Shown here: piece by piece, positions 17,720 through 63,184 of the stretch
Numbering within the stretch: position 1 is the first letter of the stretch
Layout: the number at the start of each line of letters is the position of its first letter
Assembly: GCA_964017235.1 (NCBI GenBank)
Contig: OZ024934.1
Span: forward strand, 86,890,706 to 86,954,705
Direction of reading: 5' to 3'
DNA length: 64,000 nt
Source: Sabellastarte sp. h YS-2021
Taxonomy: Eukaryota; Annelida; Polychaeta; Sabellida; Sabellidae
The notes under the pieces: model-generated
The model's input: only the letters and a program-made list of their open reading frames with translations
What the model was told of the DNA's origin: nothing
The model's database searches: none
Made by a program: the position numbers and the translations under genes

Positions 17720-18118
17720 CCAAATGGTAACAATAAACAATTATTTACATGCAAAAATTATCTCAAATGATAGAAATAAGTTTGTATTAACGCTGTCACT
17801 TTTTAAAAGACATCGTCAAACACTGTTGTTTACTAAATTTCTATAATTTTACCAGGTTAAGCTGACCCCTTCTAGATAAGATCACATCTAATTAACTTGT
17901 TTTTAAGTGTTACTTACGCTGTATCTGTATGACCAAGTCAATTTACAAAGTACATGGGAAGAGTATATTTAAACCTGTCACAATGGTACTTTGTGACCAA
18001 AAAAATTAACAGTAGGCAAACCTTATTAAAACTCCCTGCAAAGTCAAATACTTGGGCACATAATACGTGAAACATTTTGACACTGACTGTGGTGGAAATT
18101 AAAGTTAGCATCTTATGT

Positions 18119-18195
18119 CCTGTTCAATATCCTGGGTCACATTGGGACAGATCCTCAGCACTGTTTCTCGTCAGACTTGAACACACACAGAGCTT
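18119..18195 (-). mobile_element. SINE tail fragment
   Basis: On the minus strand it carries the family core TGTCCCAATGTGACCCAGGA followed by ATTGAACAGGACATAAG. This core is shared with copies near 24470, 26530, 36090, 36300 and 44930. Confidence 0.5.
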
Positions 18196-18715
18196 TAATA
18201 GTGGTGCAATTACAAGAACTAGTTCAATGAGAAAATAAGATATAACAGGATGCATATTGCAGCCTTATTTCACATTATACGTCAATGTGAATAAAAATCC
18301 AAGGTCATAGGTTGTTTCTCAAGTTAATGGTTTGTAAATACATTCTTATATAATATAATTTAGGTTGCAATTCAATGCTTCTACCAAACATAGTTAATAT
18401 ATCCAGCAATTTTGGCTGCTGTTTAAATACTAATAACTACAAATATAGAGGATTAGATGTAGCTATGTTAATACTGACTGTTAATACCACAGATGTACAG
18501 AGACATAAATCAGACGAGTTTGCAAATTTAAAACACTCACTCCTGAAAAAGAAAACATTTAAAGGAAGTAAATAATTATTAATAAAACTGTACACATTTG
18601 CAAACAAATACACAATTATGTATACTAACCAAATATATACATATATCAAGAGTATAACATTAGTGTCACAATTCACACTTTCTATTTAAAACCCCCAAGC
18701 ACAATTGTAAACTTT

Positions 18716-18839
18716 TCAGAAGTTTCCCATTTCAAATGGTTTGTACCATGTATGAGGTCTGAAGATTATTCGCTTAGGAGCTGTTTTCTTCACTACTATA
18801 TCATCTGGCATCTTCTTTTCTGGAAGTTTCTTGAATCCC
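18716..18839 (-). CDS. Exon 52: cytoplasmic tail and stop
   Basis: 124 bases starting in phase 2, then TGA at 18716-18718. The tail is short and basic (GFKKLPEKKM, VVKKTAPKR) and ends RPHTWYKPFEMGNF. YKPF fits the Y-x-x-hydrophobic form of an endocytic sorting signal, which is an inference from pattern only. No kinase or other domain is present. Confidence 0.88.
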
Positions 18840-21800
18840 CTGTAAAATAGAACACCAGCATATATATAAGCTTACATTCTTTTCCTTATTTTCCTTATCT
18901 CTCAAATTTTACCAAGAATAGTTTAATTCCTGAATACATTTTAAAATTTTACAGTAATGTATTTCAAGCTAGATGTAATAGCTATGCAGAGAAACAGGCA
19001 GTATAAATATTTTAGTTGTTGAGTTAGAATATCCAAAGGGTATTTAATTCCTGAAAATCTTTTAAATAGAATATTACAGAAATTAACTGTAAAGGGAACA
19101 CAACAGCTGTGCTGAACACAGGCAGCATTTATATTTTAGTGGGTGATCAGCATCAATTTTTTTTGTGAAAAACTACATAGAATATACACTTTTATTGCAG
19201 TTTTCAAAATTTTATTCTTAAAAATGTGTCCTTTCTTCCTCAATTGTTTCTCTGCACAAACCTTTAACTTACAGGTAAAAGAAAATTATTTCTCGTTTTT
19301 GTTGTTGTGGACTAACATGAAGGTATTGTTTGTAATTTTTAAAAATAAATTTCTTTGGCAAATCTAAAAAATAATTTGAAATTAATAGGAGGATAAGAAT
19401 TATGGGAAAATGCATATTAAATTCTGCATCATTTGTTTTCTGTTAACTCTTAATGAATTCAAGCCAAATTTTATTGTCTACATGTGTTATACATTTCACC
19501 TGGTTAGCGTATTATCAAACCAGTACTTACCTTGGTCTAATGCACAAAAGAAATGAAAATAAGAGACCAATGAAAAACACAGGAACGCCAATTCCAAGAA
19601 TAATGATTGCATTTCTCGTAGGCGAGGGATCTGAAATGCAAGAGGTACAGGAGATTAAGATTTGTGTGTATGCAGTGTAGGGATTACTCCATATTAATAT
19701 CTCCTGACTCAGCTTTGTATATTGATCAGTTTTGAAACATCATTACTACAATAAAATACACCATATGTCAGTTACAGGAGGTCTTGTTGTAGTTATATAA
19801 AACACATGTACAGTTAAATGTTTTCAACTAGAACTCAAGGAGAATTTCCGATTTCCTGGAATCCCAAGCCTAAACCGTCGTATACACCAATGAAGTTGAT
19901 CTAATCTGATCAGATAACAAAGCTGGAATTGTCATGACATATCATGTCTTTATGTACTGGAAAACAATACTTTGTAGTTCTTGTATATCTATACTCAGTG
20001 CAATATCTCCCTTGCAATCTGACTTAAAGCACTATTAGATGTATCCCAATTGCCTAAGTACAGCCCAACCTCTGGTAACTAACACTAATGCTAAATGAGT
20101 CTAGCGGATGACCGTTTGTCATTGTCCCTGGGGTTCTCTAGCCTGCCACTGGGGATAGTACCCAATGACAGAGGCCTGAAGTTTCTAGTGGTCATCCGAG
20201 TCACTATGCATCTGCATGTACCAGGTATTGAATGCAGATGCACTCCTAGGAGAGTGTGTTAAAGACTAGGCCACAGTGGCAGATACAATACAAGAAAGTA
20301 CATACATAATAAATTTTATTTGAAAGAATTCTCCAACTTTTATTGACAGCTAGCTTTAGGATATAGTAAAGCCCACAAGTCAAAATGAACAGAAGTTCCT
20401 TATTTCTGCTCTGAATTTAAAATGTTTCAATATTTCCTTCAGTTTGAAAAGTTCTTCTATCAGCGCACATTGCAACAGAACAGGGGCCATATTCAAGAAC
20501 AATACTTAGGGACCATTCCTAACATAGAGTTTCAGTATTATCTGACCAAGCAGATAACCAGATGAACGATAACAAATCTTTGTTTACAAAAAATAATCTG
20601 AGGAATGTTTCATGAATACCGATTAACAGGAAAACCTTCCGTTACTCATATCTAAGGTCACCTTTTCTAAGTACTGTTGATGAATACGGCCTCAGATTAG
20701 TGGACCCAGACCTTAAGAAGACATCTTGTTCTTTGTCCTCAATATTTTACTTCACAGGGTTTAATATTAATGGCCATGAAAAAGCACTGGACAGATTAAG
20801 CTGAGAATTTAGTCATTAAAGATGTTACCTTGATCTTTGCAGACAACTGACTCCACTCCACAGGTGGCTTCCTTCTCAGTAACTTTACCAGGAGGACATG
20901 GCCAGCAAAGTTCTCTTAACCCTGTTAATAAATTGTATCATATTAATCAATATTCAATTCTTCAATGCACATTGTATTGATGAACAAATTATTTTTTATA
21001 AGACTTCATGGAATTGGCCATTTCTGGTATGGCTTTTTCAGTTGCTAAAACAAAGGCAACAGTATATTTTATTGGAATTGTGTCAACAAAATTGTCTAAC
21101 CATACCAAGCAAAATGCTACTCTAAGAGAATAAAATTTCAAATCAATTTCAATTGCTAGGTAACAAATAAGATTAATTATGCTAAAAATCATTTTCAGTA
21201 GAATGAAGGGTTTATCAATCATCAAAGCACCCCAAAGTAAATTGAAATCCTGCAGTCTGCACCTTGTATTTTTTGTTCATCAGTTGAAATACCTGGAGAA
21301 CAAGACCCTGTCACACCAACAGAATATGGACCAAGCAATATACTGTGTAAGAGGATCAAATTTAAACTGAATTACTGCTTTCTAAAGATAAAAATATGAT
21401 GAAGTACACTTAAAATTTGCTTTCAATAGAATGAGGGATTTATTAATCAACAAAGTATCCCAATGTAAATTAAATTTTCGCTCCACTGTTGTCCTATACG
21501 AAACATTTTGAGTCATGTTTAGCTTTCATGTCTAAGGTGCTTATATATTTCCTGCTGAGTATAAAAGAAATGGAACCATACAGACTTTATTATCCTTGAA
21601 CCCCCCCCCCCCCCCCCCCCCAAAGGGGAGGAGCAAGGGTATTGTAAGTGGGTCTGTTACTCTGTTTGTGTGTATAAATAAAAACTGTACATCACATTGG
21701 GATCCACATTTTCAAACAAAGTGGGACCTACCTATGGTTCAGTACTTCTCAAATTTGACCAGGGTATTTATGTGGGTCGAATCTCCAGAATTTATTTTGC

Positions 21801-24800
21801 ATATTTTTTTTAATACTACACTTGGGTGAGGTTTAGTGCATTATCAGGCACCACTCATTTGTAATTAAAAGCTTACATTTTGACTTATATAAAAAAAATT
21901 ACCTCATGTCTAGCTTATATTTTGTAATTTATAAAACCAAATATGCAAATAAGACATTGTCAGGGACACCTGATGCCTTATATATACCAGTATTTCCTTT
22001 ATTCCCCAGTGTACACATGTTTTTTTTTATTTTCACAGTTTTAGATGTAACCTAAACACAAGGCTAAAGGATTTTATGGTGGTATTGAACAATTGTTACT
22101 GATTTACTAAAACATATTATTACTTTAGTATCACAAATCTTGACTGACCAGCAAGACTCCTTTATATGCATAAAAAAGTATTCCTTTGGGCATTTAATTT
22201 AATCTTATCAAACTTTTATTACAAATAATACCTTTACTAGCATAATCTAAGGAATTTAAGTAGCTTTTTAGTAGCAAAATAGTCAAGGAATCGGGACAAA
22301 ATATCGAATAATGGTGTGAAAAATTAGCCGAATATTGAATTACTGAAGAGAGTATATAAACAGTGTTTAAGGTACAGTGCATAAACAGACTTTCAAGTGG
22401 GGAGGATGAATAATGAAATAATTTTGTGGTGCAGGACACCGTCAAATATTTTATTTTTGTATTAATATTATGGCAGACATATCATCATGCATACAGGGCT
22501 AGTCACAATGGGGTTATATAAGTAGATTAACAAAAATCAAGGTTTTTTTCTAATCGTTTGTGATATAATCTTACACAAACTATTGCATATTATAAGTTAC
22601 CTACACAAAATCAACCAACTAGCAGCTTTATACATAAATTTATATTATTTGTCTGTATATACTGGACATGTAATATAAATAATAACATATTCAAACTCAC
22701 CTTCTGGTTGATAAGTATGCTTTGGGCACGGAACACAGCTTCTGTTGTTTATGTTCAGAAAATAACCAGGGATACAGTTATATTCTGAAATGTAAGTACA
22801 GGTATATATAACTTGCTGTTTAATAAAAATCTTCATAAAATATCAGCATTGGGTATATATAATGGCCATATTTTGTGCAATTACAGAGCACTTAACACCC
22901 ATATATATATATATTAGGTTTAGAGTGAAGCACAATACTTTGTTAACCACAACTAATTTTCTTGTGATCAACAGATCATCTTATCATAATATCATTCGAT
23001 GTTCACCAAATGATGTGATCATCACATCATCCAGTTATAATGATGAAATAAGTTGTGTTAATGAGATTTGCTGATCAAAAGACAATAAGTTGCTCTCATA
23101 AGATATTGTCAAGTTCACAAGAACTTCCCGTTATCCAAACTTGGTGATTGCTAAAATACAATTTATAATGTCCTTATTGGGACTCCATAAAGAGTTAAGT
23201 CAGTTGTTGATGCATGTATATTTTGGTACACTAGTATTGCTTCTATTATTCTTTGCTTTTATCAAGAGGGGTACATTTTTAACAGCTTCTATTGATTTGT
23301 TTGTCTGTTAAAAGAAATACTTGACATAATACTTTAAACTAAATCAGCATACAGTACAATCTATACAACTGGAACCTGAACTATCCATAGTAATTAGTGG
23401 TTTTTAAGCCAAACTTATACTTTTTCCTGAAAGAAAGACTCTGTTTTCTGACATTGGAACCTTAAACTTGATTCCACTTATAGAGTCTACTGTATTGAGA
23501 TCAGCACTTATAAAGCATTAAGACAGCAGTAAGACTATGAAATATTTTAAGCACTCATCAGACAAAATGCGAGGGCAATCATCTAATGAACTTCAGTATA
23601 CACACTTTTTATGTACTTATTCTTTGCATACTAAAAACATGGTACTAAAATTACAATCATAATTCAAAAACATATACCAGGAAAAGATGAGGGTTGTTAC
23701 TAAATTGGAGAACTGACAGATCAGGGTGATGTGCTGGAAAAGAAAAGTCAAATAGGTAAGTTTTGAGGTGTGTAAAAAATAAGATGAGTGAAGAAGCACA
23801 TCTAACGTGTTCACCTAAGGAATTTAAAAGTTTAGGACCAGAACAGCAGAAAATATTGTTAAAGTGAGTAGTAGAACTGAACTTTAAGCGGTCAATGTAG
23901 GGGTGTGAAAAAGTGTCTTGTTAAAAGTGGCACTTACGATAATCCCATGCTGTATTTGTATTGGTAATTGAAGTGTCTATTCTTGTTCCATTGTTGTATA
24001 TGGCAGTGAAAGTTTCATTTGAAATAGCCTCCATGACTCCATTTAGGGCCACAAGAGTGTCATTATAGGTCTCCACATTATCCAGAAGTATACTGACTAT
24101 GAAAGACAGAGGACTGTTACATCTGAAATGCACAAATACATCAAGCATTTATCATAAAAATTAATTTTGGGTTAATAGTAGCATAGAGCATATATTTTTT
24201 TGCCCTTACCCAAGGACCTTATTAGATATAGTGATTAAACTATTAAAATTACTGGGTTCTCACCTTAATGGTCCTGTGTTCAAACCCAGCTCATGACAAT
24301 ATCTTAGATTCACTCTGTAAACTGTACTTATATAGACCTTAGCTGCTGAACAGGATTGAGAAGGTCCTCAGGTGCCTAGTGGATTACCTGGTTGGGCATC
24401 TAATAACAGGCTGTCAGATATGTGTGGGTTAAAGTCCCAAGAGTTAAAATGCTAGGGACCTGTCCCAATATGACCCTTTGCTGTTGAACAGGATGTAAAA
24501 CACCAACTTTGACCTTTGAATGGGATTGAAACCTCCAGTATTGTTGTTATATGGTAGTCCAGCTTAAGAAATGATTTAAAAACCTTTAGCATTATCAACT
24601 TGTGCTGTCTTGTAATTTATGTGGAGTTTGAAATGTTATCTGTGTTATGCTGGTGTTCCACTGGAGCCGACCCTGTATCCGACTCTACAACTCTAGGGTC
24701 GGTTGTGAAAGTCTTGGGATCATAGAAAGAAAGACATGAAAATGCTGAGTTGGTTAAGAAATCCCAAACAGGACAGTACACTTACAGACAGGATGTGATG

Positions 24801-48800: not shown

Positions 48801-49116
48801 CAGTTGAAACTGCAACATCTAATGTTCTATTGTCATACTGGGCAGTGAAGGTTTCATTGGATATAGCTTCAACTGCCTTATTGACTGCCATTAGTGTGTT
48901 ATTATAGCTTTCCATATTATCAAGTTCTATACTGACTATGAAGGACAAGGGGCTGTTACATCTGGAAGAAAGAAAAATACAAAAAAGTGCTAGTGCAATA
49001 TATATAAAGAAAATTCATCATTACGGTAAAACAGATAAATAAAATTAATGTATTTGTTACTAGCCTGCACTGTGTCACAATTATAATATTGTCTAGTTGT
49101 CAAAGAATTTGTAATT

Positions 49117-49150
<34 letters not shown>

Positions 49151-55100: not shown

Positions 55101-58100
55101 GAACATGGCTGTAACGGCTTATTTATGACTAGATGTACCCAGGGTAAGTCCATGATAGAGTATCATTTAACCCAGTTCATCTGAATTGTATTAAATAATT
55201 ATGTATCCTTACTATTATAATTCATCTTACCTATGCAACCATCACCTGTAGCATTAACCACAAGGTCCCGATCACATGCTGTGCAAATATTGTATGCTGA
55301 ACATTGTGAACAATTCAGCATTGCATCTGCACATCCTAAAATAGTCATATAGTAATGTTACTTCCTAAAAACCTAAATGAAAGATGAACCTACTACACAA
55401 AGCACAAGCTGATAAATTTCTGCACAAACTAACTGTAGCAATTAAAGCCAACTAAAGGCAAACAGCAATAAATAAAAATATAACACAAGGTTGCGATTCT
55501 TGAATGATTAATGCCACCAGCCAACCAGTTCTGTGCTTATTTATTTTAACCATCATATCATGTTTCATTTGTGAATATTTCATTCAGCAAAAGGACTTAA
55601 TATAATTGTACCTTTACAATTGTTTTCCAATTGCGAATAAACATGTTGAAATATAAAAAAGATTGCTACAAATGTGCATTTGATTTAGATTCAATAAGCA
55701 ATCACACATCATTGTCTGTAATTAACATATACTTAGGAACTGCACTCAAATCATATCTTTACTGAGCACCATTAACCCAATTCTGCTGAATTGTGGTAAA
55801 TAATTCCATGTTGTTGTGGTTCTACATCTCACCTGTACATCCATCACCTGTAGTATTTACCACAAGGTCCCCATCACATACTGTGCAAACATTATATGCT
55901 GAACATTGGGAACAATTGAGCATTGCATCTCCACATTCTGAAATGACAATGATATTATGCTGTGTTTTACCCACAATGAATCACAAAATTCAGATGTACA
56001 AACTAAACACACATGCACAGCATCGGGTCCTTTTAAATGCATACAAATGTTAACATCAATATCAATTGCCACTTCTATGCAGATGACACCCAGTTGTTTA
56101 TTCATGTCTCAAAAAATGCAGCCCTGGCTTTTGACAAACTGAATTCATGCATCATAGACTTTCAAGCATGGATGTTGTCAAGTAGGCTCAAATTAAACCC
56201 TGATAAAACAGAGTTTATCATCTCTGGATCTCATGCTCTGCTCAAGAAATTAGATTCCCACCTCCCTGTCAGGATATTTGGTAATTTCATGCATCCAGCA
56301 GTTGTGATAAAGGACCTTGGTGTCTGGTTTGATGCTAATTTCTCTTTCACTGATTGTGTCCGCAATATTTGTAAGACATATTCATTCAAATGCTTGATCT
56401 CAGGCGGATTTGACAGTATCTGACAGATGAGGCTGCTATTCTGGCAGCCAATGCCTTGGTGAGTATTCGCCTTAATTACTGCAACTCTCTCTTCAGGAGT
56501 CTGTCCAGTGTCAACATGCACAAAATGCAGTGTATTCAAAACACACTTGCTAGGATTCTCACAAACTGTAATAAATACACACGGCCATCTCCTGTTCTCA
56601 AACGACTCTATTGGCTACCAGTTGAATTTTGCCGTACCTTTAAAACTGATACTCTAGTTTACAAGTTTCTTCACAGTGGACATCTCAATTGCATTTAAGT
56701 TACAAGAATGAACCAATCAAGCTTCACTAACTCTGATTCTTCATATATTTTGACATTTATTCACTGAGATTAAATTCATTACAATTTTTTAGTCCAGTCC
56801 CTGTAAATTGTAGGAAATGATTCAGCAATATAATGGTAATGTATCTTACCTGTACATCCATCACCTGTACCATTCACCACTAGGTTCCCATCACATGTTG
56901 TGCAAACATTATATGCTGAACAATCTGAACAACCAAGCATTGCATTAGCACATTCTGAAATAACAATGACCTTACTTTATTTTCAATACAAAGTTGAGGC
57001 TTTACTCCCGTTCAGAAGACATCATACTGGGAAAGGTCCCTGGCATTGTTGGAATTGAACATATACAGATGTGACGGCAAGTGATTACATGGCAAATCTG
57101 CTAAACACTAGGCCAGTGAGGACCTATTTTGCTTAAAATGTAATTAGATCATTCAGATGTACAGGGTGGTACACAGAAGCACCACTTAACATTTGATGCA
57201 TTTTGTATGAATATAAAAGGTAAGAATGTAGGATTTCTTGTGTGAATTCAAGTTGCAAAGTATAAAGTAATCAAAAAGTAATGGCTGAAACTGTTGAGAT
57301 TTGTTTGACCATCTGAATTGAAAATAACCAGAAGAATTGAATTTGAGCAAAGCTATCCATTAAGATCAATGTAAGGTTTCAAAACAATGATGACCTCTTT
57401 CCAGAAATAATTGTTGCAGGACATAGCCAAAACAAATGCTCAAGAGTTTCATTTCATTTCATCATTTATTTTACAAATGTTTAAAAGACTCGTTGGTTGT
57501 CAAAACATGTTGCAGTATTTTGTCCTGGACGCTCCTATATTTGCTCTTAACAGTGCGCTGGAAATTGATAGAGTAATATTCTGACATAACCTCTTCAGAA
57601 ATGAGGCTTTTGTATATTTTCTGACCATTTGGATCTGTGATTTGGTTTTACATTGTTTCAATATTTTTCCAATATATCCCATAGCAATAATTCTTCAATT
57701 GGAGGAAATCTGTTATAACTGGCTGACTAATATAACTACCTCTTAATTCAGCTGGATCTCTTAGAATATCCCCATTCTATGACTTTGGAAGACAATGTGT
57801 AAGGAAATAAAAATCTACAAAGTTTATATTTAAGCCATATGTTGACTCAAAGTCCTCAAAGCCACCAGTCCACCAGATTGATGCAGTAAATCATTCAACA
57901 TATTAATAGTTTTACCTTGGAATTCTGTTTTCTTGATAGTTATGTTTGTATTTAACAAAAGTGATGTGTCGCATAATGGATATGTTCTAACATTTATATT
58001 ATTTTCAAAGTAAATCTCATATGACATCCATGCTTTTAACACATTGCCCCAAAAGGACTTATTAACTCTAGACAGAAATTTTTGTAGGGAACAAGTATCT

Positions 58101-61100
58101 TGAAACCATACAGATGGATTGTAATTAACAGTACTCTCAACTATATATCAATATATTGTTTCTGTTTATTATCTCTGGGATCTTTTGAGAGCTTTATTTA
58201 AAAAGCTTGTGTTCATTAATCTTAGTCCTCCATTAAAAATATCTTGCTCTAGTTGTGAAAATATAATTCTTGGTTTATTTTCCTTCTAAAAAATCATTTA
58301 AAGAGTTTAAGAGTTCATTAAGTTTATTCCTTACTTTGTGATGGGAGAACTTTCATTGCATTAACTAATTTTGGAATAACAAGTGTTTTTTTTTTTACTT
58401 TGATTTCTCCAATAACTGACAGTCTATGTTTTCTATAACTTTGAAAATAAATTTTCAATTGATATAACCTTTGCATTATAATTTAATTCTGTCATTGTCT
58501 CAAGGTCTGTGTGAAAAGAGATTCCCAATAATATAAATAAATTGTCCAAGAAAGATTAACTTCAGGGCAAATAATGTTTTTAGCCTTTTATTGACCCAAG
58601 CCAAACTGCTGAGGTTTTATCAAAATCTAAGTTTAGGCCCCAACTCTGATAAAAGCCACTCAATATGTTTAAATTAGAACTCAGTGATTTAATACTTCAT
58701 TTTATGTTATTCCTCTAACCTTTGCATCTACTAAAGCTTTCAGGTGCATTCAAGGTGCAAACAATAGGCACCTGACTTAAACATTTGTAGGTATTGTAAG
58801 TATTGATAAATTTTGGGGCTAACTGCATTCAAAATAAGCACCTACTGAGTCTAATCTACCCAGATTCTCTAAACTATAGTGAACAATTTTGTATTTAGTG
58901 GTAATACATCTTACCTGTACATCCATCACCTGTAGCATTAACCACAAGGTCACCATCACATGCTGTGCAGATATTATATGCTGAGCATTGTGAACAATTT
59001 GACATTGCTACCTGACATTCTGAAATGTTATTGAGTTTGTTATTTATTTATTTATAATAAAGCTACATAAATAAAACAACAATCACATGATGGCGACAAA
59101 GGAAAACACAATCAAATTTTTAAATTTTGATGAAAACTTGCATTCAAAATAATCAACTTGATGCAAATTTGTTAAGTATCATAAAGAAAATATGGAAGCA
59201 AAACAACATAATGGAATAAAAAGCTAATTTCAACGTTTATTCAAAGATTAAGAAATCACACATCGACCAATCTCTTTAATTCATATGTCCTACTGTTTTG
59301 TTCAATAATTCTACAAGTTTGTGATAATCCTACCTGTACATCCATCACTTGTAGCATTAACCACAAGATCCCCATCACAGGCTGTACACACATTATATGC
59401 TGAGCATTGTGAACAATTAGGCATTGCAGCTGCACATTCTAAAAGATAAGGATATACCATAATTTTACACCAGGGTAATAACTACATTTGGTTATACAAA
59501 ACTAAAGTAAAAACATAATATTTTGTATTATTTTATATGAAATTTAAGAAGCTTTTATGTGTGTGCAAGTTGCCAAAAACAATCAAAAACGATCAAAAAC
59601 ATCAGTACCTGTAATTGATTTATTGAAATAACTGCATAGAGTATAATCTATATCACTTAACCCAGTTCCTCTTAGCTGTGATAAACAATTGTGTATTTTG
59701 ACAATAATACGTCTTACCTGTGCATCCATCACCTGCACTGTTAATCACAAGATCCCCATCACATGCTGTACAATTATTAAATGCTGAACATTCTAAGCAA
59801 TTGGGCATTGCATTTGTACATTCTGAAATAAAAATTAGGTTATGCTATTTCCTCTGCATTGATTGACTGGAGTTTAACGTGACTTTCAACACATTATGGT
59901 AATAATTAACAATATTCACACTTACTCAACTGTAAAATCTATGAATAATATAAGCGTTGTTACAATTTTCATGCATCAAAATCAAAAGGTAGAAAACATG
60001 GAATTAAATCAACAGAAACCCTCATGTACTTGCCAGTTAACCTTACTAAACAATATTTTACCCCATATGACTCTGAAAAGTCATAAATGATTCTTCATTT
60101 TTGTGGTAATTCACCTTACCTGTACATCCATCACCTGTACCATTAACTACAAGATCCCCATCACATACTGCACAAATATTATATGCTGAACATTGTGAAC
60201 AATTAGGCATTGCAGCTGCACATTCTGAAATAACAATAATGCCATATGATTTTTGTTTCAGTGCAATCAAACAATGTATGTGTATAGAACCGAAAATCAA
60301 AACACAACATAACATTTAGAACATTTGGTATTGATATACAATTTTCAAATATGGACAATGATAAAAAATAATTACAGCTTTCATGTGAATTAAAACTGTA
60401 AACACTCAAACAATTTGAATCAAATGTCTGTATTTTTTAATAAATTTACTCTACTTAGAATTAGCTCATTACTGAGTATGAATTATCCCAGATAATTTTT
60501 TGTGATATTATATTATAGGGTTTTAGAGTGTGCCAACCGGAAGATAAATAATGCTTGTCATAACCTTTTGATCTTCTGTATATCTGTATCCATATAATAT
60601 CTGGGTCCAATCCGGACATCAAACTACTACATAATCTAAATTATACCAAGCAATGCCACATTTTGTGGTAATATATTTTACCTGTACAACCATCTCCTGC
60701 ACCATTAACCACAAGGTCCCCATCACATGCTGTGCAAACATTATATGCTGAACATTGTGAACAATTCAGCATTGCATCTGCACATTCTGAAAAAAAGAAT
60801 GAAATAATGCAATTTATTCTACATCAATTGGTCAGTAGTCATCTGGATTTTTTGTAGATCTCTGGTTCATAGCTTGTTATCTGAAAATATCACCAGGCTG
60901 CGATATATCCAAAATTGTTTGCCATGCTATAACCAGTGCTTCAAGAGTGACTCACATTACTCCAATCCATAAATCTCGTGACTGGCTTCCTGTGAAACAA
61001 CAAATCATTTTCCAAACCTTGGTATTTGTATACAAGTACCTAACCACTGGAAACCCAAAATATATTGCCCATATTTGACTCTATACATCTGCTGTTAAGA

Positions 61101-63184
61101 CAAGACATAGCAATCCAGAGAAGATGATCCTTAAGGTTCATCATTACAGTTCCTCAATTCATAAATCAAAAGTTCATTTCAACAAATGTTTCTCATAGGA
61201 TGCTCAAAAACTTTGGAATAATTCAGCACTGGAAATTTGAACTGCTCCTATTCTTTCGTGTTTCCAAAGACAACTTAAACCCTATCTATTTCAGATGTAT
61301 TTCCCTCTGTAGGTGGTTGTGGTGGTACCAGCAGCAGTGGTGGTGATTGTACCATTTTGACATCACTTATAACATGTTGTAATACAAATACACCATTTAG
61401 ATTTATCAAGTTGCAAACTGAAGCACAACCATAGCATTTTTGTTACACTTTGTATGCTAGCTCTCATGTGAATTCAAATTCTGAATCTAAGTAATTTTTT
61501 AAACATTTTGCCAGTAATTGCACAAAATAGTAAATAAGTATCACTTAATGTGATTTCTCTACAATATTATGAACTACATCTTACCTATGCATCCATCACC
61601 TGTAGCATTAACCACAAGGTCCCCATCACATACTGTGCAAACATTATATGCTGAACATTGTGAACAATTAAGCATTGCATCTCCACATTCTGAAATGACA
61701 ATGTGACTTTGTTATTGTGACTACAATTACAAGTTTATCTGTATGGAACTCAAAACAACAGAATAGCATTCTGTAGGTACATAAGATACAAGGATTTGTG
61801 CCTTAATATATCAAAGCAACTAAATCTCTGATATATATTGAATTTGAAAACATTTAAACAATTAAACAAACATGGCTGTAACTGTTGATTTATGTTGAGG
61901 CTAAATGCACCCAGGCTAAGTCCATTACTGAGTATCATTTAACACCCAGTTCATCTAATTGTATTAAATAATTCTGTATTCTTGTCTTTCTTGTAATTTA
62001 TCTTACCCATGCAACCATAACCTGTAACATTAACCACTAGGTCACTTGTGAACAATTGCATGCAGTAATACCAATTCCTCAAATTCCCTGATTTAAAGAT
62101 GAACCTATTGAAAAAAGCACAGAATCTGGCACATTTTTTGTGCAAACTAAATTGCTCAACTAATATAAGTTTGTTATAACAGTGCATTGAATTTTAATGA
62201 ATAAGCCAATCACAGATCAGTGTCTCTAATTGTTATACTGGTATATTTGGGAACAAACTGCACTCCAATTATACCCTAAATTGTGGTTATTAATTCTATA
62301 TTGATGTTGTAATGCCTCTTACCTGTACATCCATCACCTGTAACATTAACCACAAGGTCCCCGTCACACACTGTGCAGATATTATATGCTGAACACTCTG
62401 AGCAATTGACCATTGCATCTGCACATTCTGAAAATAACAATGAAGTTTTATTTTTTTTCTCTATGACGTAATTATCTCAATTAGCTGTACAGCACTGAAA
62501 AGAAGACTTCAACATAACATTTAGTGCATTTTGTGGCCATTTAAAAAGTAAGAAAACAGAAGACGAAAGAGTTAAATCAACTTGAACAGTACTATTATTT
62601 GTCTTGAGATTGTAAAATTAAACAACCCTAACATAAATCTCTGTAATAGTTAATGCATTTTGAGACTGTTCTTCAGTAATCAATTTTGTTTGAAATAATT
62701 TAACTACAAGTGCAATTCCTTATTTCTAATAGTATTTCATTTTACCTATGCATCCATCACCTGTACCATTCACCACAAGGTCCCAATCACATGCTGTGCA
62801 AAGGTTGTATGCTGAACATTGTGAACAATTAAGCATTGCATCTGCACATTCTGAAATGACAATGATATTTCGGTATTTTAATACAATGCAATTATATCTT
62901 TCAGACTGACTGAACTTTGTACAATCACTGGTGAATTTTGCATACAAATAAAATTTAAGCATCAAGAAACAAACAGTTCAATAAACTGCACTTAAAATTA
63001 GCCTCTTTCTGGATATAAATCAAACTAGTTCCTTCGAATTGCAGGAAACATTTCTGCATTGTTCTGTATTGCATCTTACCTGTACATCCATCATTTGTAC
63101 TATTAACCACTAGGTCTCCATCACATGCTGTGCAAATATTATATGCTGAACATTCCGAGCAATTAAGAATTACATCTGCACATT
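18716..63184 (-). CDS. Giant modular single-pass membrane protein gene, 3' part (52 exons seen)
   Basis: The 52 exons placed here keep one frame and sum to 6080 coding bases (2026 residues and stop, after one base from the preceding exon). Order of the protein: array of 17 six-cysteine repeats, cap repeat, CCP, SEA-like, GCC2/GCC3; then 1 repeat, cap, CCP, SEA-like, GCC2/GCC3; then 14 repeats, cap, CCP, SEA-like, GCC2/GCC3; then one membrane span and a 41-residue tail. Each small repeat has spacing C-x6-C-x2-C-x5-C-x2-C-x12-C, akin to growth-factor-receptor or furin-like repeats. Repeat, cap, CCP and GCC exons are phase 1-1. The domains are all extracellular types, so I infer a large glycosylated cell-surface protein. 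The signal peptide and N-terminus lie beyond the right edge. I do not recognise a named family, and a role in adhesion or recognition is only a guess. Confidence 0.85.
19531..19630 (-). CDS. Exon 51: transmembrane exon
   Basis: 100 bases, phase 1 to 2. It encodes DPSPTRN, then about 24 hydrophobic residues running from AIIILGIG to FSFLLCI, then RPR. Only one span is seen, with positive residues on the 3' side, so the repeats lie outside and the C-terminus inside (type I). Confidence 0.88.
20005..20275 (-). mobile_element. Possible tRNA-derived SINE
   Basis: On the minus strand the head reads GGCCTAGTCTTTAACACACTC (A-box-like) and GCATTCAATACC (weak B box). The body has no match to the other SINEs here. 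Confidence 0.35.
20483..20693. mobile_element. MITE, 211 bases
   Basis: The left end is GGGGCCATATTCAAGAACAA and the right end, on the other strand, GAGGCCGTATTCATCAACAG. Pairing continues into TACTTAG. Non-coding, in the intron between exons 50 and 51. Confidence 0.7.
20829..20921 (-). CDS. Exon 50: GCC2/GCC3 domain, second half (module C)
   Basis: 93 bases, phase 1-1. GLRELCWPCPPGKVTEKEAT, then CGVESVVC. Last ectodomain exon, joined directly to the membrane-span exon. Confidence 0.85.
20922..22700 (-). other. Intron between exons 49 and 50
   Basis: 1.8 kb. It holds a 22-base C run (21601-21622). Two related stretches (AGTAGAATGAAGGGTTTATC near 21197 and ATAGAATGAGGGATTTATT near 21426) suggest an old local duplication. 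I see no exon. Confidence 0.45.
22701..22784 (-). CDS. Exon 49: GCC2/GCC3 domain, first half (module C)
   Basis: 84 bases, phase 1-1. YNCIPGYFLNINNRSCVPC, then KHTYQPEG. Confidence 0.85.
22785..23937 (-). other. Intron between exons 48 and 49
   Basis: 1.15 kb of AT-rich sequence. I see no exon and no clear element apart from a short AT run near 22903. Confidence 0.45.
23938..24122 (-). CDS. Exon 48: second half of SEA-like domain (module C)
   Basis: 185 bases, phase 2 to 1, one codon longer than exons 21 and 28. RCNSPLSFIVSILLDNVE, MEAISNETFTAIYNNGT and NTAWDY. Confidence 0.75.
24377..24525 (+). mobile_element. tRNA-derived SINE
   Basis: A-box-like TGCCTAGTGGATTACCTGG, B-box-like GGGTTAAAGTCCC, then the core CTGTCCCAATATGACCC and TTGAACAGGATGTAAAACAC. 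Same family as 36238-36355. A further tRNA-like B box (GTGTTCAAACCCAGC) lies at 24280. Confidence 0.6.
24643..26402 (+). mobile_element. PIF/Harbinger DNA transposon, decayed copy
   Basis: The terminal inverted repeats are left GGTGTTCCACTGGAGCCGAC and right, on the other strand, TGATGTTCCACTGGAGCCGA (28 bases pair, with few mismatches). The element is about 1.76 kb and carries one transposase relic. No second, Myb-like gene is seen. It sits in the intron between exons 47 and 48, opposite to the host gene. I could not settle the 3-base target duplication. Confidence 0.8.
25139..26131 (+). pseudogene. Harbinger (HARBI1-like) transposase relic
   Basis: DDE_Tnp_4-type nuclease. The first catalytic Asp is in SALDGKHIAIKKPKKSG, the second in SGSSSDAHIFN, and the Glu in VVENSFGIIVRRFRVLL. 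The frame has a TGA at 25619-25621 just before LNVGASGSSSDA, where the family has Trp. It has a second TGA at 25796-25798, in the place of Trp in MPWLVKPYS, and a one-base frameshift between about 25810 and 25870. It is dead but recent enough to align easily. Confidence 0.8.
26508..26590 (-). mobile_element. SINE fragment
   Basis: On the minus strand: CCTGTCCCAATATGACTGTA and GAAGATGTAAAACTC, the core and tail of the tRNA-derived SINE family seen at 36076-36355. Confidence 0.5.
26836..27025 (-). CDS. Exon 47: first half of SEA-like domain (module C)
   Basis: 190 bases, phase 1 to 2. HTFLTGLTTTLDCNDFDGAL, ESESEVKDLFIKLLNEM, NITVIVIGI. Closer to exon 20 (module A) than to exon 27. Confidence 0.75.
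27313..28300. repeat. Tandem repeat, unit about 348 bases
   Basis: GGCCTCATAT starts units at 27317 and 27665. A third, more diverged unit starts near 28005. Shared landmarks are GCCTTGAT.TTTAGCACATG, TTTAGAGAC, and AAAATTAAAGTTACAGACTT. It lies in the intron between exons 46 and 47. Confidence 0.8.
28459..28635 (-). CDS. Exon 46: CCP/sushi domain (module C)
   Basis: 177 bases, phase 1-1. IDCGDINIDNGSFGAPQGTT, ITCNKGYIIDG, ITCTVYGNWSS and EC. More diverged than the CCPs of modules A and B are from each other. Confidence 0.9.
29023..29127 (-). CDS. Exon 45: cap repeat closing array C
   Basis: 105 bases, phase 1-1. GCSEAMPGCTTCSAYNEC and CEEFKKLKDDNTGC. Confidence 0.85.
30007..30111 (-). CDS. 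Exon 44: last six-cysteine repeat of array C, divergent
   Basis: 105 bases, phase 1-1. ECEEAMPRCVECSAYNLC, then TECVQYFVVSATGDTC. The VVN sequon is replaced by VVSAT, and DGD by VQY. All six cysteines stay. Confidence 0.85.
   Translation of the reverse strand, partial: NVRKPCRDVWNVQHIIYAQNVFNTLLSVPQVTHA
30681..30785 (-). CDS. Exon 43: six-cysteine repeat (array C)
   Basis: 105 bases, phase 1-1. ECQDAMLNCLECSAFNHC, TLCNGDFVVNGTGDGC. Confidence 0.85.
30992..31096 (-). CDS. Exon 42: six-cysteine repeat (array C)
   Basis: 105 bases, phase 1-1. ECGDVMRNCIECSAFNHC and VVNVTGDGC. NCIEC links it to exon 41. Confidence 0.85.
31376..31480 (-). CDS. Exon 41: six-cysteine repeat (array C)
   Basis: 105 bases, phase 1-1. 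ECGEVMSNCIECSAYNIC and DGDFVVNETGDGC. Sequon NET. Confidence 0.85.
31762..31866 (-). CDS. Exon 40: six-cysteine repeat (array C)
   Basis: 105 bases, phase 1-1. ECPDAMPNCLECLAFDHC and DGDLVVNTAGDGC. No sequon. Confidence 0.85.
31867..33073 (-). other. Intron between exons 39 and 40
   Basis: 1.2 kb of AT-rich sequence in which I see no exon, decayed exon or recognisable repeat. Confidence 0.45.
33074..33178 (-). CDS. Exon 39: six-cysteine repeat of array A type inside array C
   Basis: 105 bases, phase 1-1. ECQVAMPNCSQCSAYNIC and VVNGTGDGC. NCSQC is typical of array A. Here it is the only such copy in array C, and its flanking intron also matches array A. Confidence 0.85.
33514..33618 (-). CDS. 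Exon 38: six-cysteine repeat (array C)
   Basis: 105 bases, phase 1-1. NCTECSSYNLCIAC and VVNATTDGC. The intron that follows, to exon 39, is homologous to the one between exons 8 and 9. Confidence 0.85.
34147..34251 (-). CDS. Exon 37: six-cysteine repeat (array C)
   Basis: 105 bases, phase 1-1. ECSDAMLNCTECSAYNHC and VVNATRNGC. Confidence 0.85.
34473..34577 (-). CDS. Exon 36: six-cysteine repeat (array C)
   Basis: 105 bases, phase 1-1. NCVQCSAYNLCTTC and DDDLVVNAAGDGC. The TTC variant is shared with exon 33, its counterpart in the two-exon unit. Confidence 0.85.
34878..34982 (-). CDS. Exon 35: six-cysteine repeat (array C)
   Basis: 105 bases, phase 1-1. ECQEAMPNCVECSAYDIC and DGDFVVNAAGDGC. 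No sequon. Confidence 0.85.
35268..35372 (-). CDS. Exon 34: six-cysteine repeat (array C)
   Basis: 105 bases, phase 1-1. ECGDAMLNCTECSAYNLC and VVNATSNGC. Confidence 0.85.
35534..35638 (-). CDS. Exon 33: six-cysteine repeat (array C)
   Basis: 105 bases, phase 1-1. NCMECSAHNLCTTC and DGNLVVNAVGDGC. No sequon. It pairs with exon 34 as a duplicated two-exon unit (compare exons 36-37). Confidence 0.85.
36076..36213 (-). mobile_element. tRNA-derived SINE, minus-oriented
   Basis: On the minus strand it has an A-box-like TAGCCTTGTGGGTTAGAGG, B-box-like GGGTTTGACTCCC, the core CTGTCCCAATATGACTCTGG and the tail GAACAGGATGTAAAACCC. It faces the plus copy at 36238-36355. Confidence 0.65.
36238..36355 (+). 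mobile_element. tRNA-derived SINE, plus-oriented
   Basis: The B-box-like GGTTTGAATCCC is followed by the family core CTGTCCCAATATGACCCTGG and TTGAACGGGACATAAAACCC. It lies back to back with a minus-oriented copy, in the intron between exons 32 and 33. Confidence 0.65.
36728..36832 (-). CDS. Exon 32: six-cysteine repeat (array C)
   Basis: 105 bases, phase 1-1. NCLECSAYDLCTAC and SGDLVVNATGDGC, with sequon NAT. Confidence 0.85.
37170..37274 (-). CDS. Exon 31: six-cysteine repeat (array C)
   Basis: 105 bases, phase 1-1. ECGDAMLNCTECSAYNLC and VVNATRDGC. First intact repeat of array C. Nearly the same as exons 34 and 37. Confidence 0.85.
37554..37619 (-). pseudogene. Decayed six-cysteine repeat exon at the start of array C
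   Basis: ECQDALPNCVDI is readable next to an AG acceptor and is then followed by a stop. The other end keeps a GT donor context (ATTACCTGAGCATTAATCC on the plus strand). By intron similarity it corresponds to the second exon of the units 34147-34577 and 35268-35638. Confidence 0.65.
38945..39443. mobile_element. MITE with long terminal inverted repeats
   Basis: The left end is CCAATAGACAATTGGTAATC and the right end, on the other strand, CCAATGGACAATTGCTAATC. Pairing continues for about 60 bases (CAGTCAGTACAGACC / CAGTCAGCACAGACC). It is about 500 bases, non-coding, inside the intron between exons 30 and 31. Confidence 0.75.
39639..39731 (-). CDS. Exon 30: GCC2/GCC3 domain, second half (module B)
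   Basis: 93 bases, phase 1-1. GLRELCYPCPLGKVTEGEAT, then YGNESVVC, where modules A and C have CG. One cysteine of a likely disulfide pair is therefore replaced by Tyr in this module only. Confidence 0.85.
40195..40278 (-). CDS. Exon 29: GCC2/GCC3 domain, first half (module B)
   Basis: 84 bases, phase 1-1. YECTPGYFVDIKNKSCTAC, then KNTYQPEG. Full motif. Confidence 0.85.
40279..41877 (-). other. Intron between exons 28 and 29
   Basis: Holds an A-run (40648-40666) and a short CT run (40762-40777). I see no exon or recognisable element. Confidence 0.5.
41878..42059 (-). CDS. Exon 28: second half of SEA-like domain (module B)
   Basis: 182 bases, phase 2 to 1. RCNSPLSFIISIELDNLES, LIEALSNETFTATYDNKT and TNTAGDY. 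Confidence 0.75.
42477..42666 (-). CDS. Exon 27: first half of SEA-like domain (module B)
   Basis: 190 bases, phase 1 to 2. HTFVTGFTTTLDCDDFDGSL, SSSEVKELFMRFLNEL and NVTITVIGI. Aligns without gaps to exons 20 and 47. Confidence 0.75.
43200..43760. repeat. Tandem repeat, unit about 155 bases
   Basis: ACTGATTTACT recurs at 43264, 43420 and 43575, each time followed by CAGCTAT, then GTTATAGCTGACCCAAAAG or a close variant. About 3.5 diverged units, in the intron between exons 26 and 27. Confidence 0.85.
43735..44145. repeat. Tandem duplication, unit about 230 bases
   Basis: TTATAGGTGATTAAGTGCAT and GAGAGAAATCCCTGCAATAG each occur twice in the same order (43740/43970 and 43888/44108). It follows directly on the 155-base repeats. 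Both lie in a dispersed-repeat-like stretch (42770-44400) with fragments such as AAACAGACAAACAGACAGA. Confidence 0.75.
44905..44990 (-). mobile_element. SINE fragment
   Basis: On the minus strand, GGGGATTCAACTCCCACAAG (B-box-like GATTCAACTCC) is followed by GTCCAAATATGAACCCGACT and TTGAACAG. Same family as the copies at 36076-36355. It lies in the intron between exons 26 and 27. Confidence 0.5.
45346..45522 (-). CDS. Exon 26: CCP/sushi domain (module B)
   Basis: 177 bases, phase 1-1. IDCGIINVINGTFSAPQGTT, VRCNAGYIIDG, INCTVSGNWSS and HC. Four cysteines and the Trp are kept. Confidence 0.9.
46025..46129 (-). CDS. Exon 25: cap repeat closing array B
   Basis: 105 bases, phase 1-1. GCSEAMPGCTNCSAYNEC and CEEFKNLKEDNTGC. 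Very close to exon 45 of module C. Confidence 0.85.
46284..46325 (-). pseudogene. Remnant of the 3' end of a repeat exon in array B
   Basis: CATGCATCCATCA next to CACC on the plus strand reads DGCMG|GTG on the gene strand, as at the end of repeat exons. Nothing recognisable precedes it. A weak remnant. Confidence 0.4.
46640..46735 (-). pseudogene. Decayed six-cysteine repeat exon in array B
   Basis: ECQEGMLNSLQCSVYNI is recognisable next to an AG acceptor, but the second cysteine is Ser. The following CxxC is gone (IAGFGYFLVND) and no donor is found. Probably a dead exon. Confidence 0.65.
46965..47069 (-). CDS. Exon 24: the only intact six-cysteine repeat of array B
   Basis: 105 bases, phase 1-1. 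ECGDAMPNCVNCSAYNVC and DGGFVVNGTGDGC. Array B has shrunk to this one usable repeat plus two decayed ones downstream. Confidence 0.85.
47693..47785 (-). CDS. Exon 23: GCC2/GCC3 domain, second half (module A)
   Basis: 93 bases, phase 1-1. GLRELCWPCPPGKVTEGEAT, then CGNESIVC and IDQG. It completes the GCC2/GCC3 pattern and closes module A. Confidence 0.85.
48340..48423 (-). CDS. Exon 22: GCC2/GCC3 domain, first half (module A)
   Basis: 84 bases, phase 1-1. YQCEPGYFVNINNKSCVPC, then NTFQPEG, the usual CxPGYF...CxxCPxxTYQPxxG opening of a GCC2/GCC3 (ephrin-receptor-like) domain. Confidence 0.85.
48780..48961 (-). CDS. Exon 21: second half of SEA-like domain (module A)
   Basis: 182 bases, phase 2 to phase 1. 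RCNSPLSFIVSIELDN, then VEAISNETFTAQYDNRT. Where a cleaving SEA domain has G-S-V-V-V, this has C-N-S-P-L, so self-cleavage is not expected. NRT and NET sequons are present. Confidence 0.75.
48962..50059 (-). other. Intron between exons 20 and 21
   Basis: It holds a run of 32 T (49118-49149) and otherwise unremarkable AT-rich sequence. I see no exon or mobile element. Confidence 0.5.
50060..50249 (-). CDS. Exon 20: first half of SEA-like domain (module A)
   Basis: 190 bases, starting in phase 1 and ending in phase 2 (the Arg codon is split). It carries HTFLTGLTTTLDCNDFDGAL, an acidic stretch ESESEVKDLFLKLLNEL, and NITVTVIGI. The predicted helix and strand order resembles a SEA domain, but the match is by eye only. 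Confidence 0.75.
50560..51430. repeat. AT-rich region of degenerate AATGTTT repeats
   Basis: The intron between exons 19 and 20 has many imperfect copies of AAATGTTT/AAACATTT with no fixed period. I see no exon in it. It could be a decayed tandem repeat. Confidence 0.45.
51963..52139 (-). CDS. Exon 19: CCP/sushi domain (module A)
   Basis: 177 bases, phase 1-1, encoding one full CCP. It has four cysteines (IDCGIISVINGTF, ATIRCNEGYIIDG, EINCTISGNWSS, YC) and the invariant Trp before the last Cys. It is nearly identical to exon 26. Confidence 0.9.
52459..52563 (-). CDS. Exon 18: divergent cap repeat closing array A
   Basis: Also 105 bases, phase 1-1, with the same six-cysteine spacing. Its second half is different: CEACATFSKLKEDNTGC, without VVN. 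The same cap type closes arrays B and C (exons 25 and 45), always directly before a CCP exon. Confidence 0.85.
53177..53281 (-). CDS. Exon 17: six-cysteine repeat with AT in place of the GT donor
   Basis: The reading frame is intact (NCSQCSAYNICSAC, then VVNAKGDGC), but the base after the exon is changed, so the junction reads GTGCAG|ATAAGA instead of CAG|GTAAGA. The site does not look like a U12 AT-AC intron. The exon is probably skipped. Because it is 105 bases and phase 1-1, skipping removes 35 residues without a frame change. The sequon is also lost (NAK). Confidence 0.7.
53370..53474 (-). CDS. Exon 16: six-cysteine repeat (array A)
   Basis: 105 bases, phase 1-1. It starts ECVNAMHNCSQC and has VVNGTGDGC. 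Only 88 bases of intron separate it from exon 17. Confidence 0.85.
53511..53556. repeat. Perfect 20-base inverted repeat in an intron
   Basis: The arm ACATATTTACTAAACTGAGA is followed, after 6 bases, by its exact reverse complement (53537-53556). It lies 37 bases upstream of exon 16 on the gene strand. The rest of the intron to 54065 shows only an unrecognised 103-residue open frame (53582-53893), which I do not call as a gene. Confidence 0.7.
54066..54170 (-). CDS. Exon 15: six-cysteine repeat (array A)
   Basis: 105 bases, phase 1-1. It starts ECSDAMLNCSQC and has VVNATDDGC. Sequon kept. Confidence 0.85.
54456..54560 (-). CDS. Exon 14: six-cysteine repeat (array A)
   Basis: 105 bases, phase 1-1. 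Core NCSQCSAYNVCTAC and DGDLVVNGTGDGC, with a full set of cysteines and canonical splice sites. Confidence 0.85.
54812..54916 (-). CDS. Exon 13: six-cysteine repeat (array A)
   Basis: 105 bases, phase 1-1. ECQAAMLNCSQCSAYNVC and DGDRVVNATGDGC, where Leu is replaced by Arg before VVN. Confidence 0.85.
55231..55335 (-). CDS. Exon 12: six-cysteine repeat (array A)
   Basis: 105 bases, phase 1-1. The first residue is Gly instead of Glu (GCADAMLNCSQC) because the acceptor-side base differs. CDRDLVVNATGDGC keeps the sequon. The intron upstream (55336-55832) shows no other feature. Confidence 0.85.
55833..55937 (-). CDS. Exon 11: six-cysteine repeat (array A)
   Basis: 105 bases, phase 1-1. Core NCSQCSAYNVCTVC and DGDLVVNTTGDGC, with an NTT sequon. 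The plus-strand LINE piece lies directly upstream. Confidence 0.85.
56037..56700 (+). mobile_element. CR1/Jockey-like LINE fragment (RT), decayed
   Basis: The plus-strand frame carries the RT catalytic YADDTQLFIHV, then SSRLKLNPDKTEFIISG and IKDLGVWFDANFSF. After a frameshift near 56380-56420 it continues with IRLNYCNSLF and RLYWLPVEF. It is 5' truncated just before the YADD block, as is usual for LINE copies. It lies in the intron between exons 10 and 11, opposite to the host gene. Confidence 0.8.
56850..56954 (-). CDS. Exon 10: six-cysteine repeat (array A)
   Basis: 105 bases, phase 1-1. It is a divergent copy, with core GCSDCSAYNVCTTC and DGNLVVNGTGDGC. Six cysteines and the sequon are kept. 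Confidence 0.85.
57447..58690 (-). mobile_element. L1/Tx1-like LINE relic
   Basis: On the minus strand, spread over different frames, I read KTSAVWLGSIKGLKN, DIFNGGLRLMNTSFLNKALK, FLSRVNKSFWGNVLKAWMSY, then TYPLCDTSLLLNTNITIKK. These follow the order of the region after the RT active site in L1/Tx1-type LINEs. Stops and frameshifts are frequent. The 3' end has an ATGAAATGAAATGAAA tail at 57447-57470. It lies in the intron between exons 9 and 10. Confidence 0.65.
58915..59019 (-). CDS. Exon 9: six-cysteine repeat (array A)
   Basis: 105 bases, phase 1-1. It begins ECQVAMSNCSQCSAYNIC, nearly the same as exon 39 (ECQVAMPNCSQC), 26 kb away. Sequon NAT. Confidence 0.85.
59334..59438 (-). CDS. Exon 8: six-cysteine repeat (array A)
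   Basis: 105 bases, phase 1-1. Core NCSQCSAYNVCTAC, sequon NAT. With exon 9 and the intron between them it forms a block closely related to exons 38-39 of array C. Confidence 0.85.
59718..59822 (-). CDS. Exon 7: six-cysteine repeat (array A)
   Basis: 105 bases, phase 1-1. Core NCLECSAFNNCTAC and DGDLVINSAGDGC, unlike its NCSQC neighbours and closer to the array C type. The sequon is lost (NSA). Confidence 0.85.
60120..60224 (-). CDS. Exon 6: six-cysteine repeat (array A)
   Basis: 105 bases, phase 1-1. Core NCSQCSAYNICAVC and DGDLVVNGTGDGC. It starts ECAAAMP, a variant shared with exon 8. Confidence 0.85.
60682..60786 (-). CDS. Exon 5: six-cysteine repeat (array A)
   Basis: 105 bases, phase 1-1. 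Core NCSQCSAYNVCTAC and DGDLVVNGAGDGC. The usual sequon is lost (NGA). Confidence 0.85.
60890..61320 (+). mobile_element. CR1-like LINE fragment (RT C-terminus), decayed
   Basis: On the plus strand, against the host gene, it reads THITPIHKSRDWLPVKQQI, then TLVFVYKYLTTGNPKYIA and LKPYLFQMYFPL. This is the end of a CR1-type LINE polymerase. Several in-frame stops are present (after YIAHI, after NKCFS and after NSALEI), so it is dead. It lies in the intron upstream of exon 5's neighbour and ends in a GGTGGTGGT-type simple repeat. Confidence 0.75.
61585..61689 (-). CDS. Exon 4: six-cysteine repeat (array A)
   Basis: 105 bases, phase 1-1. Core NCSQCSAYNVCTVC and DGDLVVNATGDGC, with the NAT sequon. 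Splice sites are canonical. Confidence 0.85.
   Translation of the reverse strand, partial: NVEMQCLIVHNVQHIMFAQYVMGTLWLMLQVMDA
62000..62075 (-). pseudogene. Decayed six-cysteine repeat exon between exons 3 and 4
   Basis: The end of a repeat exon is recognisable as SDLVVNVTGYGCMG next to a GT donor. The middle, with the CxxC motifs, is gone, and what precedes it resembles the other end of the exon (ACAATTGCATGC). It is a host exon relic with an internal deletion and is not counted in the reading frame. Confidence 0.65.
62323..62427 (-). CDS. Exon 3: six-cysteine repeat (array A)
   Basis: 105 bases, phase 1-1. Core NCSECSAYNICTVC and DGDLVVNVTGDGC, with a sequon at NVT. All six cysteines are present. 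Confidence 0.85.
62746..62850 (-). CDS. Exon 2: six-cysteine repeat (array A)
   Basis: 105 bases, phase 1-1, GT donor and AG acceptor. Core NCSQCSAYNLCTAC, followed by DWDLVVNGTGDGC, where the usual Gly is Trp. The NGT sequon is kept. Confidence 0.85.
63080..63184 (-). CDS. Exon 1 in window: six-cysteine repeat (array A)
   Basis: This is the most upstream exon visible, of 105 bases and phase 1-1. Core NCSECSAYNICTAC, then the sequon NST. The earlier part of the gene lies beyond the window, and I see no further exon between here and 64000. Confidence 0.85.

Follow-up and report, generated by a model that had tools for sequence, protein, structure and literature searches.

The GCC2/GCC3 module is carried by the animal extracellular proteins SVEP1 and SCUBE, and the CCP module is also present in SVEP1. 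These proteins carry other domains as well, namely VWA, EGF, pentraxin and CUB, and we know of no triplicated block in either of them. CCP domains are, in addition, typical of complement-related proteins. Here, we describe a locus within a 64,000-nucleotide stretch of DNA, referred to below as the window (C8:86890706-86954705), from a genome of 1.786 Gb in 647 contigs. Its COX1 sequence, on C647, presumably resembles those of bivalves, which makes a mollusc as the source plausible at most. The reading that we prefer, and to which we assign a probability of about 0.6, is that this locus is one functional gene, of which about 64 kb is known, and that its product crosses the membrane once and has a very long extracellular part that would act as an adhesion or recognition stalk. 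Most of its parts are of known kinds; their arrangement is not one that we recognise, and none of the titles found in a narrow literature search describes this combination of modules.

We rebuilt the exons independently from their splice sites rather than taking them from the list in a preliminary description of this DNA, and window-relative coordinates are used for all of them, including those beyond the window end. The gene, with every exon given below, lies on the minus strand. When 51 exons were joined, we obtained one open frame of 5,975 nt whose sole stop is at its end, with GT after and AG before the exons at every junction checked. The tally in the window is 31 six-Cys exons of 105 nt, three cap exons of 105 nt, three CCP exons of 177 nt, three exons of 190 nt (X1) and three of 182, 182 and 185 nt (X2) that encode the two halves of an unnamed domain, and three each of the first (G1, 84 nt) and second (G2, 93 nt) GCC2/GCC3 exons, followed at the 3' end by one membrane-span exon of 100 nt and one tail exon of 124 nt. 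The order (six-Cys)n - cap - CCP - X1-X2 - GCC2/GCC3 is used three times, in modules A, B and C, before the membrane span and short tail, and n is 29, 1 and 14, respectively, when the module A exons beyond the window are counted. A super-module used three times, with a single membrane span and short tail after the third, had been proposed in the preliminary description, and the splice-site rebuild bears out both features.

That description counted 52 exons in one frame and 6,080 bases. We reproduce these figures exactly once a further six-Cys exon, at 53177-53281, is added to the 51. This exon is open in frame and has the donor ATAAGA, where its sister exons mostly have GTAAGA or a near variant, and we infer that it is the one that had been counted as the 52nd. 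It may be skipped in splicing, judging from its donor, and since it is symmetrical its loss would leave the frame unharmed. The six-Cys exons are all of phase 1-1 and 105 nt. Most exons of the gene have phase 1-1, so that the frame survives the omission of any of them, and the exact frame closure that had been put forward is correct as a sum but is weaker evidence than was claimed. The span given in that description is 18716-63184, but the gene neither starts at 63184 nor is complete in the window: 13 further intact six-Cys exons continue upstream, to 82583, and the window therefore cuts the gene. In its known part, which covers 63.9 kb, the gene has at least 64 exons; these add up to 7,340 nt and encode 2,446 residues, among them 321 Cys, with 96 N-x-S/T sequons. 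When the 81 kb upstream were searched in a simple way for a signal peptide exon, three rows from two ATGs were returned, none convincing. No further CCP, X1, X2 or G2 exon was found at E ≤0.05 in 100 kb upstream and 30 kb downstream; within the window, the stretch 45641-45691 resembles G1 weakly (E 0.029).

Between the exons, we observed tandem repeats of 155 nt (43230-43743), 347 nt (27377-27999) and 59 nt (45694-45816). An open stretch on the plus strand at 56414-56695 lies inside an intron and presumably resembles a fragment of a LINE reverse transcriptase. Rfam gave no match over the window at gathering scores, and a bacterial promoter scan of 18000-19000 was discarded as meaningless for an animal gene.

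The 3' end of the gene consists of the membrane-span exon (19531-19630), whose hydrophobic stretch was read directly rather than with a dedicated predictor, and the exon for a short basic tail (18716-18839), with the stop TGA at 18716 and a poly-A-type hexamer at 18199. A profile of the membrane span, made from one sequence, finds one match in the 194-kb region and also a related exon (E 2e-4) in L038, a stretch elsewhere in the genome that is described below. This profile bears on whether modules A, B and C might instead belong to two or three neighbouring genes, each with its own membrane span, the likeliest split being between B and C. The 2,364-nt gap between B and C does contain open stretches that are hydrophobic and might in principle serve as a membrane-span or signal exon. 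Four candidate acceptors (38189, 38171, 38132 and 37410) precede such a stretch, the ATG at 38293 is weakly signal-like, and the relative in L038 has one block with a membrane span of its own. However, the profile that finds the L038 exon matches nothing in either intermodule gap, scans of the A-to-B gap of just 623 nt revealed no membrane-span-like stretch and no signal-peptide candidate, and the phases run on in frame. We therefore regard a division into several genes as unlikely, and a single gene is favoured on the sequence evidence, given the A-to-B gap without candidates and the one membrane-span profile match in 194 kb.

The six-Cys repeats make up the arrays of the gene. Module A has 16 intact 105-nt exons in the window (53370-63184), with the 13 upstream exons before them and the exon with the unusual donor after them; module B has a sole intact exon (46965-47069), and module C has 14 (30007-37274). 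The caps, which are a six-Cys variant, lie at 52459-52563, 46025-46129 and 29023-29127 in A, B and C, respectively. In an alignment of 34 window rows, the three caps included, all 34 have Cys at columns 1, 8, 11, 17, 20 and 33. Sequons recur at repeat position 27 (34 of 44 repeats) and at position 7 (31 of 44). For the window exons, profile E-values of 3e-19 to 3e-44 are strong by design, as these exons themselves supplied the profiles. Partial or decayed copies are found in the window at 37588-37617, 46640-46760 (in module B) and 61980-62120, and upstream of it at 65540-65660, 68330-68434, 69744-69776 and 76412-76468. Four of these seven score just E 0.009-0.023, and some of the seven may be chance matches.

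No credible Pfam or PDB match was found for the window six-Cys repeats. A match of strung repeats to the Staphylocoagulase repeat of Pfam (1.2e-7, 31.5 bits, cut-off 19.7), a family that we take to be bacterial, was set aside because its best stretch is 15 residues and the query is an artificial string of five repeats. The A2L zinc ribbon (1.9e-4 with the strung repeats) falls below its cut-off, and sequestosome, as a PDB match of the six-Cys profile, has a best E of 0.22. A link to a described family is provided by six-Cys exons on C14 (L040 and L041), several of them 105 nt long, which are related to the window repeats; in a pairwise comparison, the profile of the window repeats and one C14 repeat match at 2.4e-8. 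A string of three C14 repeats matches Furin-like_2 at 3.4e-4 (21.2 bits, under the curated cut-off of 28) and R-spondin-1 at 0.0047, and a single C14 repeat matches Furin-like_2 at 0.0012. An AlphaFold model of the 34-residue repeat has a pLDDT of 87.3, and a Foldseek search with it places chains of R-spondin-1 complexes at ranks 1, 2, 3 and 5 of 34 matches, with TM 0.62-0.64 by query and E 3.9 to 6.4, which is not significant. A genome scan with Furin-like_2 (PF15913) gave five matches, on C3 and C11 only, and found neither six-Cys array. With the C14 exons as the link, we regard the window repeat as a probable, divergent member of the furin-like repeats of the R-spondin type.

The C14 exons form a second six-Cys array (85.83-85.93 Mb), with matches over about 100 kb, that is nearer to furin-like repeats. 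Downstream of it, CCP, X1-X2 and GCC2/GCC3 have no match at E ≤0.5 in L041 and only weak matches, at E ≥0.95, in L043. Further six-Cys repeat matches were found on C1 and C19, one on each.

The CCP and GCC2/GCC3 modules can be identified directly. The CCP exons of module C (28459-28635) and module B (45346-45522) match Pfam Sushi at 2.6e-6 (28.2 bits) and 2e-5 (25.4 bits), respectively, with a cut-off of 20.7. The module A CCP exon (51963-52139), which was recognised by profile and splice sites, the Pfam Sushi scan having covered modules B and C, is 94% identical in DNA to that of module B. Likewise, the first GCC2/GCC3 exons of module C (22701-22784) and module B (40195-40278) match Ephrin_rec_like (PF07699) at 1e-5 (25.6 bits) and 4.5e-5 (23.6 bits), and the first (48340-48423) and second (47693-47785) exons of module A, when joined, do so at 1.4e-8 and 34.8 bits (cut-off 23.1). 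The second exons of modules B and C lie at 39639-39731 and 20829-20921. With Pfam matches above the cut-offs, the earlier naming of CCP and GCC2/GCC3 as known extracellular modules is upheld. The nearest solved structure to the GCC2/GCC3 part is ELAPOR1 (3.3e-4). An exon-wise genome scan with Ephrin_rec_like, with scoring confined to the best 150 of 319 candidates, gave at least 116 matches, and the window exons are absent among the matches listed. GCC2/GCC3 clusters apart from the window gene were seen at C5:81.42-81.68, C5:13.35-13.93, C6:127.5-127.64 and C1:50.47-50.51 Mb.

Between CCP and GCC2/GCC3 lies the X1-X2 domain, encoded by X1 exons at 50060-50249 (A), 42477-42666 (B) and 26836-27025 (C) and by X2 exons at 48780-48961, 41878-42059 and 23938-24122 in the same order. 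It had been called SEA-like, a name that finds no support from Pfam, the PDB or profile-profile comparison, and we treat the SEA-like identity as a guess. Pfam SEA gives no match in six X1-X2 sequences, and none in the window by an exon-wise search, which has little power when a domain is divided between two exons; elsewhere in the genome it finds six places at E ≤1, two of them above the cut-off. The PDB profile search with X1-X2 returned no match better than E 0.42 and no SEA chain. Against one MUC1 SEA segment, the X1-X2 profile has a probability of 0.1% (E 0.41), and the short alignment coincides with the SEA cleavage site. At the place of the G-S-V-V-V autoproteolysis motif, the six sequences contain no G-S and read RCNSPLSF in four cases, RCNSPLLF in one and RCASPLSI in one. 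The X1 half alone, modelled from three rows, has the order strand-helix-helix-strand at a pLDDT of 54, to be set beside the beta-alpha-beta-beta-alpha-beta order of the complete SEA fold, and a fold search with this low-scoring model gave three matches, none useful. No credible match of X1-X2 to any Pfam family was found; DUF5834, DUF5482, WGG and others, at E 0.017 to 0.1, are below their cut-offs. If its fold proves new, X1-X2 deserves a name of its own.

These results also bear on the idea that the protein is a glycocalyx or mucin-like surface coat, with X1-X2 as a genuine SEA module. The many N-glycan sequons, the strand-helix-helix-strand model of X1 and the one profile alignment to MUC1 SEA, landing as it does on the cleavage site, would fit such a coat. 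Nevertheless, a Pfam family able to find SEA at six other places in this genome finds none here, the MUC1 comparison stands at 0.1% with no G-S cleavage motif, the model has a pLDDT of 54, and the translation, as judged by eye, has no Ser/Thr-rich tract. We consider a coat protein of this type improbable, and an adhesion or recognition stalk remains the preferred reading.

Comparison of the modules with one another revealed that the module exons are constrained coding sequence under purifying selection. Taken across every module exon that the three have in common, dN/dS is 0.26 for A-B, 0.26 for A-C and 0.23 for B-C, with dS of 0.51-0.68; among the six-Cys repeats, the mean dS is 0.59 and the mean dN 0.16 (946 pairs of 44 repeats, with pairs of undefined dS omitted). 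A cluster of pseudogenes or of chance open frames could be suspected from the seven partial or decayed repeat copies and the one broken donor, but 51 intact in-frame exons with GT-AG junctions and a dN/dS near 0.25 make it highly improbable, and the independent Pfam matches, together with a dN/dS well below 1, render chance an unlikely explanation.

Divergence between the modules is uneven, which suggests that sequence has been exchanged among them. For CCP, pS is 0.10 for A-B, compared with 0.44 and 0.50 for the comparisons with C, and for X1 it is 0.25 for A-C, compared with 0.46 to 0.48 for those with B. The repeat exons 58915-59019 of module A and 33074-33178 of module C pair in the tree (97/70), and beside them two stretches of 110 and 120 nt match at 88%. 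Overall, the repeats group by module, with five label changes where shuffling gives 13.0 on average and a value as low in 0 of 200 shuffles, in a tree whose bootstrap is unsettled and most of whose forks are weak. Beyond the window end, the exon pairs 64860/67682 and 65282/68103 have a pS of 0.00, and this suggests a recent block duplication in the array, within 64860-68207.

The X1-X2 domain is present at ten places outside the window, on C5, C7 and C14. Four of the C5 places are at 141.68-141.80 Mb, two at 124.08 and 124.18 and two at 91.84 and 91.92; the others are at 109.38 Mb on C7 and at 96.26 Mb on C14, the latter with stops in one match. Window-type CCP exons occur near the C5 places. 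Several such exons adjoin X1-X2 places at C5:91.84-91.85 and 91.92-91.94 Mb. Three of the ten places were read, L037 on C7 and L038 and L039 on C5, and all three have the order X1, X2, G1, G2 in common with the window. Their X1-X2 sequences are 32-34% identical to that of module A, with invariant DC.DF and GIRC.SPL, and L038 has exon lengths equal to those of the window for CCP (177 nt) and G1 (84 nt), with a membrane-span exon after its CCP, X1-X2, GCC2/GCC3 block. Upstream in L038 there are additional CCP exons, 177 and 180 nt long, which may or may not belong to its gene, and a search there for a tail exon gave many chance candidates. In contrast to the three blocks of the window gene, each of these stretches has one X1-X2-GCC2/GCC3 block.

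A paralogue tree of six rows, which has one long branch, groups the three window modules as a clade apart from L037, L038 and L039 (support 96/99), from which it follows that the triplication was local. As far as the sequences indicate, the window gene belongs to a family with other members in this genome, and it differs from them by local triplication and by expansion of its repeats. No six-Cys matches were reported near the X1-X2 places of the relatives, and the six-Cys array may have been either gained in the window gene or lost in the relatives. A wider proposal, which we put forward tentatively, takes X1-X2 to be a new extracellular domain and the hallmark of a lineage family of membrane proteins built as CCP - X - GCC2/GCC3. 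The window gene would then be the extreme form of this family, a triple-headed stalk with a gained furin-like array. That array has at least 44 one-exon units, and their number may differ from one individual to another and determine reach or glycan coat.

The CCP domains, the clustering of relatives on C5 and the record of repeat gain and loss, with decayed copies and two near-identical exon pairs, would also be expected of a pattern-recognition or opsonin-binding immune receptor of blood cells whose repeat number varies between individuals. The selection data run the other way, as we observed constraint and homogenisation rather than diversification, and we find an immune receptor of this kind doubtful.

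Under the preferred reading of an adhesion or recognition stalk, each six-Cys repeat would be a small furin-like disulfide unit, so that the arrays would form stiff, N-glycosylated spacers, and the three CCP - X1-X2 - GCC2/GCC3 blocks, each placed after an array of one-exon repeats, would be the contact units. Tripling the blocks on one stalk would give more reach and avidity. The protein is most likely a cell-surface stalk of this sort and not a signalling receptor of its own, given that its short basic tail has no signalling motif visible by eye. Such a gene could have originated from a smaller CCPn - X1-X2 - GCC2/GCC3 - membrane-span family by local triplication and gain of the furin-like array. 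The locus illustrates cleanly how a giant extracellular protein grows exon by exon, with one repeat per symmetrical 105-nt exon; copy gain and decay are visible in it alongside signs of exchange among three constrained super-modules. Variation of the arrays between individuals, should it occur, could give the gene a part in surface recognition in this lineage.

When the window gene is set beside described proteins, the VWA, EGF, pentraxin and CUB domains of SVEP1 and SCUBE are not seen in it, and the likeness to ELAPOR1 concerns the GCC2/GCC3 part, which is the part compared; the rest is not known to correspond. With the R-spondin/furin-like repeats of Furin-like_2, the window repeats share a common Cys order with two CxxC pairs, yet they fall short of the Furin-like_2 profile. 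They differ as well in forming a membrane-anchored array of 44 copies with 35 residues per 105-nt exon, fixed spacing and sequons.
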